Part shown: positions 20,392 through 46,427 of the stretch, piece after piece
How the letters are laid out: the number at the start of each line of letters is the position of its first letter
How positions within the stretch are numbered: position 1 is the stretch's first letter
Assembly (NCBI GenBank): GCA_903835685.1
Contig: CAILNX010000044.1
Location: 1 to 60,919 of the forward strand
Length of the DNA stretch: 60,919 nt
DNA from: an uncultured delta proteobacterium
GTDB lineage: Bacteria; Desulfobacterota; Desulfovibrionia; Desulfovibrionales; Desulfovibrionaceae
Direction: 5' to 3'
Program-made: the position numbers and the translations under genes
The notes under the pieces: model-generated
Seen by the model: the letters and a program-made list of their open reading frames with translations, nothing else
Told to the model about the DNA's origin: nothing
Database searches by the model: none

Positions 20392-21705
20392 GTGTTGAAA
20401 GAAAAACTGCGCCAATTCTTCCTTGCCACCTGCCCGGAGCAGGAGCTGAAACGCTGGTTCGACCCTCTCTCCATCCGTCTCCTGGATGAGGAGAAGCGGG
20501 TCAACGTGGTCTTTCCGCACAGCTTCTTTTCCCAGTGGTTTGCGTCCAGCAATCAGGACCGGTTCGAGGAGGGTCTGCACCGCTTCCTGGGCAACGGCTT
20601 CACGGTCCAGTACAAGCACGGACCCGAGGCCGGTCCAAACGGCCACGGACCAGCCGCGCCCAAGGCCACCAACATCGATTTCCCCTTTGGTCCCCAGTTC
20701 ACCTTTGAGAATTTCCTAGTGAACAAGAAGAACTACTTTCCGGTGGCCTCGGCCCGGGAGGTGTCCAAGCAGCGGGAGATCGTGTTCAATCCCTTTGTGA
20801 TCTGCGGCCAGGGCGGATGCGGCAAGACCCACCTGCTGAAAGCCGTGGGCAACGAGATCAGCAAGAAACAGGCCTCCCGGCAGATATTCTTCGGATCGGT
20901 GGAGGATGTGGAGTCCATCTACGAGACCCGGTTCGCCAATGACCCGTTCAAGGCCAGAGACTACCTGTATTCCTTTGATTTTCTGCTGGTGGATGATTTC
21001 CAGCGCATCCGTCGCAACGGCACCCTCCAGCAGGAAATGATCCTCATCTTCAATCATTTCTACGACAACAAGAAGCAGATGGTCTTTTCCTGCGCGGACA
21101 AGCTGGCCTCCTACGACTTCCTGGACCCCACCCTGAAATCCAGGCTGGAATGGGGGCTCATCGTCAACTTGAAGCAGCCGGATTTGGACATCCGCCTGCA
21201 CTTCATCCAGGGCCAGTGCAAAAACAAGAAGATCGCCTTGAGCAAGGAGCAGATCCTGTCCCTGGCCCAGCGTTTCCAGGACTTCCGCTATCTCCAGGGC
21301 ATCCTCATCAAGATTTTCGCCTTCAAGGAACTGCTGAAAAGGGACATTGACGAGCGGGATTTCGAGCACATCCTGAACAACACCGAGGACCGGGGGGCCG
21401 GAACCCTGTCCACGGAGCTCATTCTGTCCATCACCGCGAATTATTACAAGATGCGGGTGGACGACCTCATGGGCAACAGCCGCAAGCAGAACATCGCCCT
21501 GGCCCGGCAGGTGTCCATGTTTCTGTGCCGCCAGCTCCTGGGGGCCTCCTTCCCGGCCTTAGGGAGGGTCTTCGGGGGAAAGGACCACAGCACGGTCTTG
21601 TATTCTGTCCGAAAAATCGATGAATTACAGAAGGATGATAAGGATATGAAACGGGTGTTACAAGAATTGAAGGATCTGTGTTTGTTACCCCGGGGCAATG
21701 ACTAA
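20392..21705 (+). CDS. dnaA: Chromosomal replication initiator DnaA (divergent)
   Basis: DnaA opens the origin and loads the helicase. The 437-residue protein has a short domain I (about 1-75), an AAA+ core with Walker A GQGGCGKTHL near residue 140 (commonly GGVGLGKTHL), a Walker B region LLVDDFQRI (commonly DDIQF) and LKSRLEWGL with the arginine finger. Domain IV contains RVFGGKDHSTVLYSVRKI, matching the DnaA signature that contacts the DnaA box. The start is GTG with no clear ribosome-binding site; no better start lies upstream in frame. dnaN begins about 135 bp downstream. Walker motifs are unusual but complete, so I expect activity. Confidence 0.9.
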   Translation: MLKEKLRQFFLATCPEQELKRWFDPLSIRLLDEEKRVNVVFPHSFFSQWFASSNQDRFEEGLHRFLGNGFTVQYKHGPEAGPNGHGPAAPKATNIDFPFGPQFTFENFLVNKKNYFPVASAREVSKQREIVFNPFVICGQGGCGKTHLLKAVGNEISKKQASRQIFFGSVEDVESIYETRFANDPFKARDYLYSFDFLLVDDFQRIRRNGTLQQEMILIFNHFYDNKKQMVFSCADKLASYDFLDPTLKSRLEWGLIVNLKQPDLDIRLHFIQGQCKNKKIALSKEQILSLAQRFQDFRYLQGILIKIFAFKELLKRDIDERDFEHILNNTEDRGAGTLSTELILSITANYYKMRVDDLMGNSRKQNIALARQVSMFLCRQLLGASFPALGRVFGGKDHSTVLYSVRKIDELQKDDKDMKRVLQELKDLCLLPRGND

Positions 21706-34881: not shown

Positions 34882-36210
34882 ATGTCGAAAAGCAAGCTGA
34901 AACCGCTTCAAATCGAGGCCACGATCCCGGTGCTTGGTTCGGCCAAGGTGGCCTCCCCCCTGCCCCGCTGCAATTTCACCCCGGACAACGCGGCCGTGCG
35001 GGTGGACTTGACCGAGGACGAGCTGGGGTTCGTGCCCGAGACCCCCATCTATCACGAATTCGAAAAGGCCGGACCCCGGGCCAAAATCTTCTTTGAGCCG
35101 ACCAAGACCAAATGCGCCATCGTGACCTGCGGCGGGCTGTGTCCGGGCTTAAACGACGTGATCCGGGCCATTGTCATGGAGGCCCACCACAACTACAAGG
35201 TGGCCGCCGTGCTGGGCATCCGCTTCGGTTTGCAGGGCTTCATCCCCAGCTACGGGCACGACATCATGGAGCTTGATCCCCAGCGGGTGGCGGACATCCA
35301 CCAGTTCGGGGGGACCATCCTGGGCTCCTCGCGCGGCCCCCAGCCAGCCGACGAGGTGGTGGACGCCCTGGAGCGCATGAACATCAGCATCCTGTTCATG
35401 ATCGGTGGCGACGGCACCATGCGCGCGGCCCAGCACATCGTGGACGAGATCAAGGCCCGCAAGCTCAAGATATCGCTCATCGGCATCCCCAAGACCATTG
35501 ACAACGACATCAATTTCGTCAGCCGTTCCTTTGGGTTCGACACGGCCGTGGAAAAGGCCACCGAGGCCATCCAGTGCGCCCATGTCGAGGCCCAGGGCGC
35601 GGTGAACGGCATCGGGCTGGTCAAGGTCATGGGCCGGGACGCGGGTTTCATCGCGGCCCAGGCCACCCTGGCCCTGAAAGAGGTGAATTTCGTCCTGGTG
35701 CCTGAGAACCCCTTCACCCTGGAAGGCCCGGGTGGGCTCATCCCCGGCCTGGAGCAGCGCTTGAAGGAGCGCCAGCACGCGGTGATCCTGTGCGCCGAGG
35801 GCGCGGGCCAGGACCTGACCCAGTCCACGGGCCAGCAAGACGCTTCGGGCAACAAGCAGTTGGCCGACATCTGCTCGGTCCTGTCGGAAAAGATCAAGGC
35901 CCATTTCAAGGCCAGCCACACAGAGATCACCCTGAAATTCATCGACCCGAGCTACATGATCCGCTCGGTCCCAGCCAATGCCAATGACCGCATCTATTGC
36001 GGGTTCCTGGGCCAGCACGCGGTGCATGCGGCCATGTCCGGCCGCACGGGCATGGTGGTGAGCAATTTGAAGTCCCATTATGTGCACTTGCCCGTGGCCC
36101 TGGTCTGCGGCAAGGGCAAGCGTCTGAACACCCAGTCGGATTATTGGCGCGCGGTCCTGGAGTCCACCGGCCAGGCGGATTTCATGGAGGCCCCCCATTT
36201 CTGCCCCTGA
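34882..36210 (+). CDS. pfkA: 6-phosphofructokinase, ATP-type with Lys in the PKTIDND loop
   Basis: It phosphorylates fructose 6-phosphate in glycolysis. The 442 residues are longer than E. coli PfkA. Motifs are CGGLCPGLNDVIRAIV near 80, GGDGT near 176, PKTIDNDI, and GRDAGFIAAQATLA. In this superfamily the Gly in GGDGT points to ATP as donor (pyrophosphate enzymes have GGDD), and Lys in PKTIDND is seen in pyrophosphate enzymes and in some long ATP enzymes; I expect ATP use by inference. An AGGGATTC-type site precedes the ATG. It follows the secreted protein by 27 bp. Confidence 0.93.
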   Translation: MSKSKLKPLQIEATIPVLGSAKVASPLPRCNFTPDNAAVRVDLTEDELGFVPETPIYHEFEKAGPRAKIFFEPTKTKCAIVTCGGLCPGLNDVIRAIVMEAHHNYKVAAVLGIRFGLQGFIPSYGHDIMELDPQRVADIHQFGGTILGSSRGPQPADEVVDALERMNISILFMIGGDGTMRAAQHIVDEIKARKLKISLIGIPKTIDNDINFVSRSFGFDTAVEKATEAIQCAHVEAQGAVNGIGLVKVMGRDAGFIAAQATLALKEVNFVLVPENPFTLEGPGGLIPGLEQRLKERQHAVILCAEGAGQDLTQSTGQQDASGNKQLADICSVLSEKIKAHFKASHTEITLKFIDPSYMIRSVPANANDRIYCGFLGQHAVHAAMSGRTGMVVSNLKSHYVHLPVALVCGKGKRLNTQSDYWRAVLESTGQADFMEAPHFCP

Positions 36211-36244
36211 TTCGCCAGTCGTTGTCCTTTCCCTTTTTTTTCCA

Positions 36245-36279
36245 GGAGTCCAGGACGTCCATCCTCGGGCTCCTTTTTT
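36245..36279 (+). terminator. Weak candidate terminator after pfkA
   Basis: GGAGTCC and GGGCTCC pair at six of seven positions and are followed by six T residues. The 15-nt loop is long, so the stem is weak. It lies about 35 nt after the pfkA stop. Confidence 0.35.
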
Positions 36280-36376
36280 GTGGCCTATACCTGCGTGGTT
36301 CGAGAGCCTTCTCCCTGAGCTGCCAGTCCTTTTCCCTGCCTTTGGCCCGGTCCCTTGACCCCTGGCCCATCCTGTG

Positions 36377-36411
36377 ATATCGATAAGCGACGATAGCGAA
36401 AATCGGCTTAT
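36377..36411. promoter_or_regulatory. GCTTAYCGATA site 1 upstream of the MerR-type regulator
   Basis: TATCGATAAGC at 36378-36388 is the reverse complement of GCTTATCGATA and is followed by a partial GGCTTAT at 36405-36411, so the two ATAAGC/GCTTAT halves form an inverted repeat. It lies 44-78 bp upstream of the preferred start (36455) of the next gene, a normal operator position. Related sites lie inside and after that gene. Confidence 0.5.
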
Positions 36412-36454
36412 ACCAGCATCTTTAGGTTCTCCGTCTTTCAAGGATATTCTGGCC

Positions 36455-37618
36455 ATGGCTGAACCCACCCCCCGTACCTTGACCCATCAGGACCTGGCCC
36501 GCCGGGTGGGGGTGTCGGTCACGACCATCAAAAGCTATCGCCGGAAGTTCCCGGAGTTCTTCCAACCGCCCACCCTGACCAAACCCCTGCGTTTTGTCCC
36601 GGACACCGAGAAACTCTGCCGCACGATTTTCGACCTGTTCCAGGAAGGGCTGTCCATCAAGCAGGCCAGACGAGAACTTGCCAAGGTGTTTCCAATTGTT
36701 GCGGACATCGATAGCTTACCGATAACTCATGATTCAACCCAGGGGTCTGCGGAAAGCACGGGGGATTTCGAGCGGCTGTTCCATGTGCTTGGCCAGATGT
36801 CCAAGGGCATGGGGGCCATGGCCACGGCCCAGGCCAAATTCGGCCTGGAGGCGGCCAAGGACAAGGACCGCATCGACACCCTGTTCGCCCAGCAGAACGC
36901 CCTGGTGGCGCATTTGAACGAGATATCGGCGAATCTGAACAAGGCGCTGGCGGGTCTGGCCCAGCAGGCCGGGAAAAGTCCTGCGGCCGCCCCCCGGCGG
37001 GTCATCAATGTGCGGGGAGAACAGGGGGCGGTCCATGCCTATGAGTTCACGGATAGGCCCCCGGAGTCCGGGACAGCAGGACCTGAGCCTCGCAAGCCTG
37101 GCGAAGAGCCAGCCCGGTCTCGGGCCGAGGAGCCGACCGGGTCGTTCCAGACACCAGGTCCGGAATCCGGTCCTACTCCAAGTTCCCAATCAGGCCCGAC
37201 CCCTGGCCCGACTCCTGGTCCGCCAGTTGGCCCGAAACCTGGCCCGCGCGACGTTGTAGGACGTCCGGATTTTCTCGACCTGCCTGCGGTCATGCATTCG
37301 GCTCGGGGCGAATACCTCGGGCTGACCGGACCCTCGGGCCGACCTTTCAGCCTGGGTGAACTGGAAGCCTATTTGGGCCAGCGACCGGATTTGAAGCCCC
37401 TGGACGAGGCCTGGCAAGGGGCGGACGAGGAGTGGACCCTGACCTTGCAGTCCCCGCATTCCACCCGGGGCCGACACGCCTTCAGCTTCAGAAAAACCCA
37501 GACCCCCAAGGGCAACCACGTGGCCCTGCTCCGTCAGCTCTCCATTGACGGAACGACCGTGACCGAAGGCTTTCTCCAGGCCTTTTTCCGACAAATTCGT
37601 GAATCGTTACTGCATTGA
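36455..37618 (+). CDS. MerR-type helix-turn-helix protein with coiled coil
   Basis: The start at 36455 (MAEPTPRTLTHQDLARRVGV) gives 387 residues; a GTG 27 codons upstream is less likely because it would put the putative operator inside the gene. Residues about 10-75 form a MerR-like winged helix-turn-helix (LTHQDLARRVGVSVTTIKSYRRKFPEFFQP). About 100-175 is a coiled coil (TAQAKFGLEAAKDKDRIDTLFAQQNALVAHLNEISANLNKAL), then a Pro/Gly/Ser-rich linker to about 275 and a C-terminal domain of about 110 residues of unknown type. The three sites GCTTAYCGATA around the gene suggest autoregulation or a DNA-organising role. Family not recognised. Confidence 0.7.
   Translation: MAEPTPRTLTHQDLARRVGVSVTTIKSYRRKFPEFFQPPTLTKPLRFVPDTEKLCRTIFDLFQEGLSIKQARRELAKVFPIVADIDSLPITHDSTQGSAESTGDFERLFHVLGQMSKGMGAMATAQAKFGLEAAKDKDRIDTLFAQQNALVAHLNEISANLNKALAGLAQQAGKSPAAAPRRVINVRGEQGAVHAYEFTDRPPESGTAGPEPRKPGEEPARSRAEEPTGSFQTPGPESGPTPSSQSGPTPGPTPGPPVGPKPGPRDVVGRPDFLDLPAVMHSARGEYLGLTGPSGRPFSLGELEAYLGQRPDLKPLDEAWQGADEEWTLTLQSPHSTRGRHAFSFRKTQTPKGNHVALLRQLSIDGTTVTEGFLQAFFRQIRESLLH
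36714..36724. promoter_or_regulatory. GCTTAYCGATA site 2 inside the MerR-type gene
   Basis: GCTTACCGATA at 36714-36724 lies inside the coding region, and overlaps an ATCGATAGC half (36707-36715), giving a compact palindrome-like cluster. It shares the 11-bp core with the sites at 36378 and 37643. Confidence 0.45.
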
Positions 37619-38115
37619 AATACACCGTGTAAATTGATCGGCGCTTACCGATATTGCCACTTCACCGGTCCATCAGGTCGCCATGCCGACCAGACCGCAA
37701 ATCTTCAACCACACGTTGAAGGACGAACCACACGCACAGGTCCAGGCCGTGGCTGGCCTTTCTTCAGTCCCTGTCCGCTCGGACTCTGGTCAATGGCATG
37801 GGCCACTTCCGCCCCTGCGGCCAAGCCTGTTTGATGCCCACGCTCAACCGCACCCGGTCCAGGGCCGAAGTCCGAGAGGCTGCCATCCTGGTCAGGGACT
37901 CAAAAATCCGCCTGAACAGGCCAATACGAGGGATTTTTTGTTGATAGCTGGGAAAAGGGGGGGTACATTCCGCATGTTCCTGCCTCTCCCTGTCTTTTTT
38001 TCTGGTTTTTTGCGCCATTTCTTCCTTCGACCGGATTTGCGCGAGGCAGGATTTCTGAAGTCGATCTTTTCCACTCTTTACGACGTTCAACATTTCCAAC
38101 CGACCGGAGGGAAAT
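37619..38115. other. About 500 bp without a supported gene before glnA
   Basis: The first part holds GCTTAYCGATA site 3. Arms AAAAATCC (37902-37909) and GGATTTTT (37931-37938) could form a hairpin. Short frames on both strands (up to about 110 residues on the minus strand) have no recognisable family and look unconvincing. No sigma-54 promoter was seen before glnA. The stretch could hold remnants of a lost gene or a long leader. Confidence 0.4.
37643..37653. promoter_or_regulatory. GCTTAYCGATA site 3 downstream of the MerR-type gene
   Basis: GCTTACCGATA at 37643-37653, 25 nt after the stop codon, is identical to the copy inside the gene. Three copies of an 11-mer with one variable base within 1.3 kb is far above chance. 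Confidence 0.45.
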
Positions 38116-39459
38116 ATGGATCAGCCCGTGTTCAAATGCAAAAACGCCGACGATGTGCTCAAAGCGGTCAAGGACCACAACATCAGTTTCCTGCAATTCT
38201 GGTTCGTGGACATCCTAGGGATGCTCAAAAGCTTTCAGATCACGCCCAAGGAGCTGGAGGCGGCCTTTGAGGAGGGCATGGGCTTTGACGGCTCCTCCAT
38301 CCTCGGGTTCACCCGCATCGATGAATCCGACATGGTGGCCATTCCGGACCCGACCACCTTTCAGATCGCCTCCTGGCGGCCCATGGACCGGCCCGTGGCC
38401 CGCATGTTCTGCGACATCGTCACCCCTGACGGCAAACCCTATGAGGGCGACTCCCGCTTCGTGCTCAAGCGCCAGCTCAAAAGAGCCGCAGCCAAGGGCT
38501 ACACCTTTTACGTCGGACCCGAGCTGGAGTTCTTCCTGTTCGCCAGCCACGAATATCCCGAGCCCATTGATGCGGGCGGGTATTTCGACGCCCCACCCCT
38601 GGATCTGGGCAACAACATCCGCCGCGACATCATCTTCGCCCTGGAAAGCATGGGCATCAGCGTGGAGTACAGCCACCACGAGGTCGCGCCCAGCCAGCAC
38701 GAGATTGATCTGCGCTACCAGGAAGCCCTGCACATGGCCGACACGGCCATGACCTACCGGGTGGTGGTCAAGGAGATGGCCCGCAAGCACGGCTGCTACG
38801 CTACCTTCATGCCCAAGCCCATTTTCGGGCAGAACGGGTCCGGCATGCACGTGCACCAGTCCCTGTTCAAGAACGGCCGCAACACCTTTTTCGATCCCAA
38901 CGACCCCTACCATCTGAGCGCCGAAGGAAAAGCATATATTGCTGGAATATTGAAGCATTCTCGGGAAATCTGCTGCGTGACCAGCCAGTGGGTCAATTCC
39001 TACAAGCGTCTGGTGCCTGGCTACGAGGCCCCGGTGTACGTGGCCTGGGCCCGGCGCAACCGCTCGGCCCTGGTCCGGGTGCCCATGTACAAGCCCGGGA
39101 AAGAGTCGGCCACGCGCATGGAATTGCGCTGCCCGGACCCGGCCGCCAATCCGTACCTGTGCTTCGCGGTCATGCTGGCCGCTGGACTCAAGGGCGTGGA
39201 GGAGGGCTACACCCTGCCCGATCCGGTGGAGACCAACATCTTTGACATGGAGCCCAGCCAGTTGAAAAAGCACAAGATAAACTCTTTGCCCGGAAGCCTC
39301 TACGAAGCGGCCGAGGAGATGTACAAGAGCAAGCTGGTGCGGGAGACCCTGGGTGAGCACATCCACAAGAATCTGTACCACAACAAGATCAAGGAATGGG
39401 ACGACTACCGGGTCAGGGTGACCGAGTACGAGTTGGAGCGCTATCTGCCCATCCTGTAG
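38116..39459 (+). CDS. glnA: Glutamine synthetase, type I (alpha-like)
   Basis: It makes glutamine from glutamate and ammonium with ATP. The 447-residue protein is preceded by a GGAGG site and shows GFDGSSILGF near 52, YVGPELEFFLF, HHEVAPSQHEID, NGSGMHVHQSL, VPGYEAPVYVAW and RMELRCPDPAANPYLCFAVMLAAG. The length and the absence of a recognisable NLYDLPPEE adenylylation segment suggest the alpha-type enzyme, which is not adenylylated; that is inferred. An intrinsic terminator follows 36 bp after the stop. Confidence 0.96.
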   Translation: MDQPVFKCKNADDVLKAVKDHNISFLQFWFVDILGMLKSFQITPKELEAAFEEGMGFDGSSILGFTRIDESDMVAIPDPTTFQIASWRPMDRPVARMFCDIVTPDGKPYEGDSRFVLKRQLKRAAAKGYTFYVGPELEFFLFASHEYPEPIDAGGYFDAPPLDLGNNIRRDIIFALESMGISVEYSHHEVAPSQHEIDLRYQEALHMADTAMTYRVVVKEMARKHGCYATFMPKPIFGQNGSGMHVHQSLFKNGRNTFFDPNDPYHLSAEGKAYIAGILKHSREICCVTSQWVNSYKRLVPGYEAPVYVAWARRNRSALVRVPMYKPGKESATRMELRCPDPAANPYLCFAVMLAAGLKGVEEGYTLPDPVETNIFDMEPSQLKKHKINSLPGSLYEAAEEMYKSKLVRETLGEHIHKNLYHNKIKEWDDYRVRVTEYELERYLPIL

Positions 39460-39495
39460 TTCGCAGAACCTGCCCGCCTTCAGGCGTATTCCAAG

Positions 39496-39525
39496 CCCCT
39501 CCCGGTCCAGCTGGGAGGGGTTTTT
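39496..39525 (+). terminator. Intrinsic terminator of glnA
   Basis: A stem of CCCCTCCC and GGGAGGGG with a 9-nt loop is followed by five T residues, about 37 nt after the glnA stop. It is a strong rho-independent terminator. Confidence 0.85.
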
Positions 39526-40676: not shown

Positions 40677-41645
40677 TTAACCGGCAATGGCTCCGAGCTG
40701 AAGCTGTTCGGCCAGCCGGGTCAGTTCGGCCTGGTTCTGGAAATGGAAGCTGATGACCCCGCGCTCCATATTGCCCGAGACCGTGATTTTGAGTCCCAGG
40801 ATCTCGTCCATGCGGTTCTTGAGCTGGCGCAACTCCTCGTCGATATACTTGGGTTCGCGCGCCCTTTTAGAGCGTTTTTCGGCCTTGGCCTGGACCCTAG
40901 AGTCCAAAAAGGCCCCGGATTCGGGAAAACGGCCATGAGCCTTGAAATACGCGGATTCGGCCTCGGCCTGTCGCACGGACATGGAAAGTTCCAGCATGCG
41001 CAGGCGGAAGGGCTCGCGCGCCTCCTCGTCCAGGCTCATGATGGACCGGCCGTGTCCGGCGGAGAGCCGCCCCTCCTGGATGTCCATCTGGGCGTTTTGG
41101 GGCAGGGAGAGCAGGCGCAGGGTGTTGGACAGGGTCGAGCGGCTCTTGCTCAGCTGCTTGGCCAGGTCCTCCTGGGTCAGGCCGAATTCCTGGATCAGGC
41201 GTTCGCAGCCCTTGGCCTCTTCAATGGGATTTAAGTCCTCGCGCTGCAAATTCTCGATCAGGGCGATGGCCATGCCCTCGGCATCGGTCAGCTCCCGGAC
41301 CATGGCCGGAATCTGGGTCAGCCCGGCCAACTGGCTGGCCCGCCAACGCCGTTCGCCAGCCACGATCTGGAACTGGCTTTTTCCCTCTTCTTTGATGGGC
41401 CGCACCAGAATGGGCTGGAGCACGCCCTGGTTGCGGATGGATTCCGCAAGCTCGGCCAGGGCTTCCGGGGCGAACACCTGCCGGGGCTGCATGGGATTGG
41501 ACACGATCTGGCCCATGTCGATGAGGCGCGCCCCGTGGGCCGGGCTGCCGTGCTGGGCGCCAGCGCCCTGGCGGGCCACCATGGGGGCGTCGTCTCCGAA
41601 CAAGGCCTGCAACCCTCTTCCCAATCCGCCTTTCACCGCCGCCAT
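40677..41645 (-). CDS. parB: Chromosome partitioning protein ParB
   Basis: ParB binds parS sites, spreads on DNA and works with ParA in chromosome segregation. The ATG at 41645 follows AAGGAG and gives 322 residues: MAAVKGGLGRGLQALFGDDAP is the normal N-terminus with a ParA-stimulating basic stretch. QIVAGERRWRASQLAGL is the GERRWRA box of the CTP-binding domain, LTQEDLAKQLSKSRSTLSNTLRLLSLP is the helix-turn-helix, and the C-terminal 60 residues form the dimerisation domain. Two parS sites lie 1.4 kb away. parA is on the same strand but separated by an opposite-strand gene. Confidence 0.96.
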   Translation of the reverse strand: MAAVKGGLGRGLQALFGDDAPMVARQGAGAQHGSPAHGARLIDMGQIVSNPMQPRQVFAPEALAELAESIRNQGVLQPILVRPIKEEGKSQFQIVAGERRWRASQLAGLTQIPAMVRELTDAEGMAIALIENLQREDLNPIEEAKGCERLIQEFGLTQEDLAKQLSKSRSTLSNTLRLLSLPQNAQMDIQEGRLSAGHGRSIMSLDEEAREPFRLRMLELSMSVRQAEAESAYFKAHGRFPESGAFLDSRVQAKAEKRSKRAREPKYIDEELRQLKNRMDEILGLKITVSGNMERGVISFHFQNQAELTRLAEQLQLGAIAG

Positions 41646-41767
41646 GCCCTTCTCCTTGCGCTTAAAAACCTGTTTATGCCGCCTTGCGCCCAAACCCGCC
41701 CAGGGATAGCCTTGACCTTTGCCGTCGTGGCCTTACCTCTGGCGAAACCTCTCACCCGGGACATCCA

Positions 41768-42212: not shown

Positions 42213-42980
42213 TTACACGATGCGCTTCACGACCTCCTGGGCCAGGGACAGATAGGCCTCGGCCCCGGAGGACTTGATGTCGTAGGTGACCACGGGCTTG
42301 CCATAGCTCGGGGCCTCGGACAGGCGCACGTTGCGCGGCACGATGGACTCGAACAGATGGCCCGGGAAGGTCTTGCGCACCTCGTGCCGCACCTGCCGCG
42401 ACAGGCGGTTGCGCTGATCGTACATGGTTAGCACCACGCCCAAAAGTTTTAAGTCCGGGTTGAGCCGCTTTTTCACCAGTTCATAGGTGTTCAGCAGGTG
42501 GGCCACCCCTTCCAGGGCGTAATATTCGCACTGCAAGGGCACGAGCATTTCCGTGGCCGCGCACAGGGCGTTTACAGTCAGTAAACCAAGGGACGGCGGG
42601 CAGTCGAAAAAGATGAAATCGTAGTCATCCTGGACCTTTTCCACCAATTCCTTGATGTAGTATTCTCGCCCCATCTTGTCGATGAGCTCGATTTCCGCAC
42701 CCACCAGGTCCTGGTTCGCGGGCATGATGTGCAAATAGGGGAGCTCCGCACTGTAGAGCGCTTCCCTGGCCCGTTCCGGCTCAAAAAGGACTGAATAGAT
42801 CGTGGTCCGCTCGTCCCCGGGGAAGAAATTCAGCCCGCTGGAGGCGTTCCCCTGGGGATCGCAGTCCACCAGGAGGACCTTTTTTTCCATCACAGCCAAT
42901 GAACTGGCCAGATTGACCGAGGTGGTGGTTTTGCCCACCCCGCCCTTTTGATTCGCAACCACGATTCTGCGTGCAGACAT
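42213..42980 (-). CDS. parA: Chromosome partitioning ATPase ParA (Soj)
   Basis: A deviant Walker-type ATPase that moves ParB-bound origins. The ATG at 42980 follows GAGG and gives 255 residues, the usual size of chromosomal ParA. VVANQKGGVGKTTTSVNLASSLA (5-27) is the deviant Walker A, DCDPQGNASSGL the A' motif, and FDCPPSLGLLTVNAL the B motif. A longer frame extends to 43049 but its extra residues are partly encoded by parS. The gene is downstream of the UDG-like gene and ends 35 bp before the convergent Cys-rich gene. Confidence 0.96.
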   Translation of the reverse strand: MSARRIVVANQKGGVGKTTTSVNLASSLAVMEKKVLLVDCDPQGNASSGLNFFPGDERTTIYSVLFEPERAREALYSAELPYLHIMPANQDLVGAEIELIDKMGREYYIKELVEKVQDDYDFIFFDCPPSLGLLTVNALCAATEMLVPLQCEYYALEGVAHLLNTYELVKKRLNPDLKLLGVVLTMYDQRNRLSRQVRHEVRKTFPGHLFESIVPRNVRLSEAPSYGKPVVTYDIKSSGAEAYLSLAQEVVKRIV

Positions 42981-43004
42981 GTCAGCCTCGTTGGGAGTTT
43001 TAAG

Positions 43005-43020
43005 CGTTTCACGTGAAACC
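43005..43020. promoter_or_regulatory. parS site 1 (parA leader)
   Basis: CGTTTCACGTGAAACC contains the full 14-bp core GTTTCACGTGAAAC of the bacterial parS consensus and lies 25-40 bp upstream of the parA start. ParB bound here could also repress parA. Confidence 0.9.
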
Positions 43021-43096
43021 CGTCTACCCTTGAAGAGGCTGAAGGGCAAGTCACGGCAAGCAGTCTTTGTGTGAAAAGTGGAAAAAGAGTCAGAAA

Positions 43097-45725: not shown

Positions 45726-46427
45726 TCAGGACGTTTTTTCGGGTCCGGCCTGGGCCTGGGAAATCTTGTCCAGAAGATAGCGCTCCAGATCCCGGCGGTC
45801 CTTGCGCAAACGCACGATTTCCGCTTCCAGCACCTTGAGTTTGGCCGTGATCTCACCCTGTTCGCTCAGAAGCTCCTGGGTGGTGGCCTCCAGTTCCGCG
45901 TCTTTCTGGGCCAGGACCTGGCTGCGGCGCTCCTGATCCAGGGCCACGGGCCGGATGAGGGCCTGGGGAAGGTGCTTGAGCCGCTTTTGATTTTGGGCTA
46001 GCTGGACAAAGGCGGTTTTGAGGCGCTGGATGTCCAGGCGCTGATGCTCAATGAGCGATTTCTGATTGCTGAGCACTTCCAGGCATTTGCCAAAACGTCC
46101 CAAGAGATCGGTCACGGTGCTCACCAGGGCCGGATCAAAGCCCGCATGCACGGCAGGCAGGGGCGACTGGACCACCGGGCTGGAGGAGACCTCAATGGTG
46201 CGCGGGATCTCCTGGTGCAACTCTTCCTCGATCTCGTGGGTCAGCCGTCCGTCCTGATACTCGGCATTGATGCGCTGGAACAGGGTCAGGGCCTCTTCCG
46301 GGTACTTGGTGGTCCGGCCCATGCGCTTGCCCGGGAGATACTCCTTGAACAGCAAGGCGTACCGCCGGGCCGTGGGCGCTGGAATGCGGGTGAGCTTGGA
46401 GATTTCCGCCAAGGAGTACCAATTCAT
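45726..46427 (-). CDS. MerR-type helix-turn-helix protein with long coiled coil
   Basis: The 233-residue protein starts MNWYSLAEISKLTRIPAPTARRYALLFKEYLPG, a MerR-like helix-turn-helix in residues 1-35, with a winged part up to about 75. After a spacer, about 120-225 is an almost continuous coiled coil rich in Lys, Gln, Leu and Glu (IEHQRLDIQRLKTAFVQLAQNQKRLK... and LSEQGEITAKLKVLEAEIVRLRKDRRDLERYL). There is no visible ligand domain. The architecture resembles RacA-type DNA-organising proteins, but that is only a comparison of layout. A 16-bp palindrome sits just upstream of its start. Confidence 0.78.
   Translation of the reverse strand: MNWYSLAEISKLTRIPAPTARRYALLFKEYLPGKRMGRTTKYPEEALTLFQRINAEYQDGRLTHEIEEELHQEIPRTIEVSSSPVVQSPLPAVHAGFDPALVSTVTDLLGRFGKCLEVLSNQKSLIEHQRLDIQRLKTAFVQLAQNQKRLKHLPQALIRPVALDQERRSQVLAQKDAELEATTQELLSEQGEITAKLKVLEAEIVRLRKDRRDLERYLLDKISQAQAGPEKTS

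Follow-up and report, generated by a model that had tools for sequence, protein, structure and literature searches.

A putative autoregulatory operator array, partly conserved among relatives, at the gene of an uncharacterised MerR-like coiled-coil protein

What is a short sequence doing three times in and around a single gene and, in exact form, nowhere else in the genome? The question is raised by GCTTAYCGATA in a contig from an uncultured member of the Desulfovibrionaceae (the window, by which we mean the whole stretch of 60,919 nucleotides analysed here). A sequence-only reading had reported copies upstream of, inside and downstream of a gene for a MerR-type coiled-coil protein, had judged three such copies well beyond chance and had offered two explanations, an autoregulatory array or a DNA-organising or partition-like system. 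The copies are indeed where they were placed, at 36378-36388 (minus strand), 36714-36724 (plus) and 37643-37653 (plus); the window holds no further copy even at one mismatch, and 100 shuffles gave a mean of 0.26 copies, with three in none of them. Across the whole genome (3.94 Mb in 65 contigs, of which the window is one) there are likewise three exact copies, all at this locus. The observation is confirmed, and is stronger than was claimed.

The three copies are the cores of a longer inverted repeat, TATCGRTAAG(N)GACGAT, of 16-18 bp, whose occurrences we call O1, O2 and O3. O1 and O3 have the form ATCG-N8-CGAT and O2 the form ATCG-N9-CGAT; in reverse, O3 reads TATCGGTAAGCGCCGAT and O2 reads TATCGGTAAGCTATCGAT. 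The longer pattern TATCGRTAAGNGMCGA matches the genome without mismatch at O1 and O3 only. With up to three mismatches the genome has 88 matches, whereas the reversed control pattern has 156; near sites are thus not in excess elsewhere in the window genome. O2 directly follows the part of the gene that encodes the HTH, and the spacings are 336 bp (O1-O2), 929 bp (O2-O3) and 1265 bp (O1-O3). The features of the locus are as follows.

36355..36383, plus strand: putative sigma-70 promoter (-35 TTGACC at 36355-36360, 17-bp spacer, -10 TATCGA at 36378-36383)
36378..36394, plus strand: O1, candidate promoter operator holding copy 1 (minus strand), TATCGATAAGCGACGAT; from the sequence and from relatives with the same geometry upstream
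36455..37618, plus strand: family A gene, 387 amino acids, encoding a MerR-like HTH, coiled coil, linker and C-terminal domain
36455..36694, plus strand: MerR-like DNA-binding domain, residues 1-80 (Pfam MerR_1; structure model)
36707..36724, plus strand: O2, candidate intragenic operator, ATCGATAGCTTACCGATA, variant with a 9-bp spacer, codons 85-90 (sequence; PWM)
36761..36970, plus strand: coiled coil, residues 103-172 (modelled as a single 70-residue helix, block pLDDT 85-96 over 111-170)
37262..37615, plus strand: C-terminal alpha/beta domain, residues 270-387 (structure models)
37637..37653, minus strand: O3, candidate operator, TATCGGTAAGCGCCGAT, 18 bp past the stop codon (sequence)

The likeliest start of the gene is the ATG at 36455, which is preceded by AAGGA and gives the protein of 387 amino acids, instead of the GTG at 36374; with this correction copy 1 sits in the promoter, outside the reading frame. 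The domain description given for the protein was borne out. Residues 10-76 match Pfam MerR_1 with 25.7 bits (cut-off 21.6), and a MerR_1 match at E ≤ 0.1 is found in all 50 A2 members. An AlphaFold2 model built on 50 sequences (mean pLDDT 80, pTM 0.41) runs from the HTH through the helix at 103-172, a hairpin and a low-confidence Pro/Gly-rich linker to a confident C-terminal domain, which when modelled alone (pLDDT 90.8, pTM 0.83) appears to be separately folded. Comparison of the HTH with the PDB in Foldseek places the RacA DNA-binding domain (5i44) among the top rows (E 7.6e-3 and up, target TM 0.74-0.79), a weak match that ranks below HiNmlR.

No solved structure matches the C-terminal domain convincingly: the best Foldseek hit (E 0.013) is a designed protein, and the best VIA hit (Z 6.5, rmsd 3.5, 89 residues aligned) is Flpp3, which may reflect a common arrangement only. 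Pfam finds HTH-type models alone in the window protein and no family at its C-terminus, six NCBIfam queries produced no match near a cut-off, and a profile run against PDB sequences gave eight weak matches (E 0.028-0.081) that mostly cover the coiled coil. A phage origin of the domain was considered and dropped, with no match at E 1e-5 in 50,697 phage records.

Relatives of the family A protein were found in 52 of 150 genomes of the order when the window protein was the query. An alignment-based search matched 112 of 199 genomes, paralogues and single-domain matches included, and among the genomes listed found nothing in at least 18 genomes of genus g3 (genera are given here by g numbers). The named relatives belong to the Desulfovibrionaceae and related MAGs: Pseudodesulfovibrio, Halodesulfovibrio, Humidesulfovibrio, Fundidesulfovibrio and Desulfocurvus, which points to the Desulfovibrionaceae as the most likely source of the window too. 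Among the literature matches listed none names the family A protein, and among those listed as holding one of three bare motif 10-mers none is, by title, about it.

To score the element across relatives, we assembled 86 loci from a sample of genomes of the order: 46 (the window and 45 others) together with 40 of 54 from a later search, from which 11 contigs taken as duplicates on their length and position and three loci that were cut or masked (L134, L147, L162) were left out. Gene starts were set by script at the nearest ATG before the HTH, with L058, L062 and L069 set by hand; the start chosen in L122 probably makes that gene too long. The PWM was trained on ten sites from the window, g2 and g4 loci and applied at a threshold of 9 bits. 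The training genera are g1, g2 and g4, and some of the sites counted below also trained the PWM. A held-out set of 71 loci was formed by removing these genera and nine loci that resemble g2 (L121, L122, L123, L125, L126, L153, L154, L157, L161). The best PWM match of a locus lies within 400 bp of the gene start in 39 of the 80 loci outside g1, g2 and g4 (expected 5.6) and in 31 of the 71 held-out loci (expected 4.9). Many of the 86 loci are close relatives, and none of the counts given here are of independent events.

The -10 hexamer of the window promoter forms the first part of O1, so that O1 overlaps it; a generic promoter scan did not flag 36355..36383. Of the 86 loci, the window among them, 31 have the pattern TTGACN-N16-18-TATCG in the 400 bp before the gene; the remaining 1,171,152 bp hold it twice. 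The spacer, free to vary from 16 to 18 bp, is 17 bp in 27 of these loci and 18 bp in four. Among held-out loci the pattern is present in 17 of 71. It is found in every locus of g14 (6/6), g2 (3/3), g4 (2/2), g19 (2/2), g9 (2/2) and g1 (1/1), in part of g5 (1/2), g6 (1/5) and the unlabelled loci (13/40), and in none of g8 (0/13), g10 (0/5), g20 (0/3), g16 (0/1) or g18 (0/1).

The PWM gives an upstream match (-320..-20) in 42 of 86 loci against 1.12 expected (29/71 held out), 13 of the 42 being g8 leader repeats (TGACGAT...GGTGACGAT) and not O1 at -10. The match is missing from the other 44 loci, including all five of g10 and all three of g20. The sequence-only reading had named absence of the site near orthologues as one thing that would refute it: many relatives have the site, and the g10 and g20 loci carry no such element. 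None of the 13 g8 loci, which a shared contig identifies as Pseudodesulfovibrio, has the promoter pattern or O2. Their leader is built differently, with TTGACC and TCTAGA-type sequences followed by (T)ATCGGTAAG, tandem GGTGACGAT repeats, a small ORF and the gene. By eye this ORF has about 65 codons, lies between the family A promoter and the gene (about -220 to 0) and apparently reaches the gene start (L041, L050, L051, L054, L055, L065 and L067 are examples).

Inside the gene, a PWM match falls at +236..+264 in 18 of 86 loci, where the match rate in the rest of the loci would predict 0.11; 12 of the 80 loci outside g1, g2 and g4 and five of the 71 held-out loci have such an O2-like match. On these counts O2 is firm in g1, g2 and its kin, g4, half of g14 and g18; in the other loci it is absent or unrecognised. 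In the window it scores 9.4 bits, just above the threshold, with its 9-bp spacer; its orientation differs among genera and its distance from O1 varies among loci. The leucine codon at O2 is TTA in 11 of the 14 loci with a GC content of at least 0.60, a figure partly built in since O2 loci were picked by PWM, and TTA makes up 16 of 755 leucine codons in 15 window genes. Such codon use, as evidence only partly independent, suggests that the DNA itself is conserved, beyond the peptide. An equivalent of O3 (at least 9 bits, within 100 bp past the gene) is found in the window and L073 only among the 86 loci. Conserved sites are present, then, in the gene's own promoter and its own coding sequence, though not in all genera. 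The earlier suggestion of an autoregulatory array is thereby well supported at the level of sequence: a promoter site lies at the -10 with a spacing conserved at 17 bp, and several genera have a site inside the gene at a constant codon position.

A second line of evidence comes from a paralogous family (family B). Its proteins have a coiled coil and the same C-terminal domain as family A (an example of the latter, G119:C1:7762-8115, matches with E 4.9e-22), and the one member compared with MerR_1 matches it with 32.4 bits. Both the recognition helix and the motif, here TGATCA, differ from those of family A. TGATCA repeats were first spotted by eye in L085, L086 and L088, after which 20 further loci were added; 21 of 24 loci were recognised by HTH pattern, and L164, L174 and L175 were dropped. 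Of the 21 recognised loci, 19 have TGATCA inside the gene at +245..+278 and 18 have it in the 250 bp upstream (16/17 and 14/17 among the 17 recognised new loci). In total the 14.7 kb near the start hold 66 sites, and the 108 kb farther away hold 38. All but L087 come from g8 and g14, so these loci represent few independent lineages. Family B repeats, as far as its sequences tell, the design of a promoter site plus an intragenic site with another motif, and the motif changes together with the HTH, which would be expected of proteins that each bind sites of their own. In the window genome's own family B copy (L084, G000:C10) the coiled coil and the C-terminal domain are present, and the reading frame shows no HTH.

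The data directly support the sites, their confinement to the locus, the promoter geometry and its conservation, and the same design in family B. From these we infer binding of the protein to the sites, the sign of the effect and loop formation. We propose that O1-O3 are probably operators through which the MerR-like coiled-coil protein represses its own gene. That the gene is autoregulated through these sites is the part we hold most confidently, as very likely; that the effect is repression is also likely, O1 binding being such as would cover the -10 hexamer, which makes repression the natural reading. The HTH would recognise ATCG...CGAT half sites around an AT-rich TAAG centre. At high levels of the protein O1 would be occupied, the -10 hexamer covered and RNA polymerase kept off. 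O2 and O3 would strengthen repression. The likeliest means is a repression loop, in which the coiled coil and the C-terminal domain would bridge these sites to O1; otherwise the sites would act as roadblocks. Distances of 336 and 1265 bp are within looping range. The O1-O2 spacing varies among loci, however, so the case for looping between the operators is one of analogy, and we put its chances at a little under even. A genome-wide regulon was also considered and rejected: TATCGRTAAGNGACGA with up to two mismatches gave 44 matches in ten genomes against 72 for the reversed control. The best TATCGRTAAGNGACGA matches lie at the gene in G000, G036, G068, G005 and G084.

What of the proposal that the locus organises or partitions DNA? 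It had been said to lie 16 kb from dnaA, and it is indeed near, although the distance is about 15 kb (dnaA at 20392-21705). In the window the gene lies between dnaA and parABS, with parB at 40677-41693 and parA at 42213-43049 (both named by eye) and parS-like sites at 43006 and 43100. The minimum of cumulative GC skew falls in the 41-43 kb step. The locus does not belong to the ParB-parS type, since separate parA/parB genes and parS-like sites are present and the GCTTAYCGATA sites are unlike parS. About 2.6 kb from the parS-like sites there is a second HTH-plus-coiled-coil ORF (45726-46427, minus strand, 233 amino acids), MerR-like by eye yet lacking a MerR match in Pfam; three 8-mers are common to its upstream region and codons 60-140, and are unlike an operator.

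Of 14 large-contig genomes searched, G093 has no family A gene; in all 13 others the gene lies 2 to 170 kb from dnaA (by hand, relative to the dnaA copy neighbouring dnaN-gyrB-gyrA). As a control, queA lies 4-103 kb from dnaA in 12 of the same 13 genomes and 1.6 Mb away in one, whereas pgi lies 13-733 kb away in the 11 genomes with a good match and is mostly not near. Since queA too is near in 12 of the 13, the origin proximity of the gene is not specific: its position is conserved, though not specially so, and proximity as proof of an origin function is weakened. All 14 genomes contain two dnaA-like genes, and the records of G068, G110, G115, G122 and G130 begin near a divergent copy (24-25% identity to the window dnaA) and not near the better match. 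In L150, L158 and L160 the family A gene diverges from dnaA across a gap of about 0.2 kb (L150, L158) or 1.3 kb (L160), with a TTATCGGTTGCTTTACGATAA-like palindrome upstream of the gene in L150 and L158 and half of it in L160; with this arrangement dnaA itself might be controlled.

An origin-region organiser, RacA-like or centromere-like, in which the sites would nucleate a complex that marks or tethers the origin and autoregulation would be a by-product, nonetheless has evidence to draw on, and we rate it as unlikely. The gene is near dnaA in all 13 large-contig genomes as in the window, at most 2 kb from it in L136, L150, L158 and L160, and the HTH resembles the RacA domain, weakly and behind HiNmlR. 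Exact TTATCGATAA sites number 0 to 25 per genome in ten genomes. In eight g14 genomes, eight of 120 such sites lie within 8 kb of the gene against about 0.46 expected if uniform, a hand count that leaves out the gene's own promoter sites and its -400..+400 region and ignores kinship. These extra sites, which keep an organising role in play, come two each from G096, G114, G128 and G153 and none from G100, G101, G109 or G155; they may be shared by descent, and most g14 sites lie elsewhere. In G068 (4.4 Mb) the third and last exact TTATCGATAA is 8.3 kb from dnaA, between coaBC and parA (L089:7526; G068:C1:2888525). The window genome, by contrast, has no strong site outside the 1.3 kb locus. For the partition-like proposal, then, the extra sites in half of the g14 genomes speak in favour, and the lack of strong sites elsewhere, the separate parABS and the position of queA speak against. 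A self-centred, centromere-like locus, at which the family's strong sites, confined to or clustered at its own origin-near gene, would form a chromosomal landmark while paralogues of other specificity mark other loci, seems to us distinctly unlikely.

The same sites could belong to another regulator that controls the family A gene, given that binding by the encoded protein is a prediction from sequence; this is improbable, as a regulator with a single target would be unusual unless autoregulatory, and family B, with a different HTH, has a different motif in the same places. Quite improbable, too, is that O3, and partly O1 and O2, serve the downstream glnA, so that the protein would also control glutamine synthetase. 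O3 does lie some 460 bp upstream of glnA, which is beside the gene in 14 of 86 loci (the window, six g14, one g19, two g8, L109, L112, L113 and L124), but not at a recognisable glnA promoter, the scan's only promoter-like site being at 37941. In the flanks (0.5-8 kb) of the other 72 loci glnA was not found, and in L052 (g14) the downstream site comes after glnA, not before. As an inverted repeat the element might form an RNA hairpin, or it might reflect coding constraint. Rfam gives no match across 35000-39500, however, and the element is found in either orientation and in coding as well as non-coding DNA; O1, covering the -10, would hardly be transcribed, which goes against an RNA element. 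This reading is largely refuted by position, and its probability is close to nil.

Taken together, and as read from sequence, these results point to an autoregulatory operator array that is real and in part conserved, in an uncharacterised family of MerR-like coiled-coil proteins. A family found in many Desulfovibrionaceae genera thereby gains a candidate DNA target and a testable circuit. That two paralogue families, each with its own motif, have a candidate operator inside the coding sequence at one and the same domain boundary suggests that this operator belongs to the wiring of these proteins and is no accident. If the protein has an organising role at the origin as well, sulfate reducers would possess a new type of segregation factor.

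How does the proposed circuit compare with known systems? In the classical MerR regulators (MerR, CueR, BmrR), as here, a MerR_1 winged-helix domain is followed by a coiled-coil helix, and autoregulation is common among MerR regulators. Classical MerR operators lie within a 19-20 bp spacer and serve activation, in the passages of PMC5859096 that concern them. Here there is no operator inside such a spacer; instead the spacer is 17 bp, the putative operator lies over the -10, a second one is intragenic, and neither Pfam nor NCBIfam yields a family for the C-terminal domain. Spacer length and placement over the -10 led us to reject the reading as a canonical MerR activator.

RacA of Bacillus subtilis shares the MerR-like HTH (with the weak fold match to 5i44), the coiled coil and origin-proximal sites. 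Its ram sites are described, in the relevant part of PMC6593407, as dense near the origin and also present throughout the chromosome, and RacA as binding DivIVA through its own C-terminal coiled coil; its site is GC-rich according to the section on it in PMC5859096. The window locus differs in having three AT-rich sites in or next to its own gene and an extra C-terminal domain, and the window genome does not have many sites at the origin and genome-wide (g14 has more). BldC of Streptomyces has a MerR-like head and binds direct repeats, as seen in the g8 GGTGACGAT and family B arrays, and is characterised in the portion of PMC5859096 devoted to it as a protein of 68 residues lacking a coiled coil and effector domain. 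The family A protein, at 387 amino acids, has both a coiled coil and a C-terminal domain. There is a parallel in layout with lac O1/O2 and gal OE/OI, where an operator at the promoter and another inside coding sequence act by looping and the repressor controls a gene other than its own. Here, by contrast, the regulated gene is proposed to be that of the repressor itself, and the candidate intragenic operator lies at the boundary between HTH and coiled coil, in two paralogue families.
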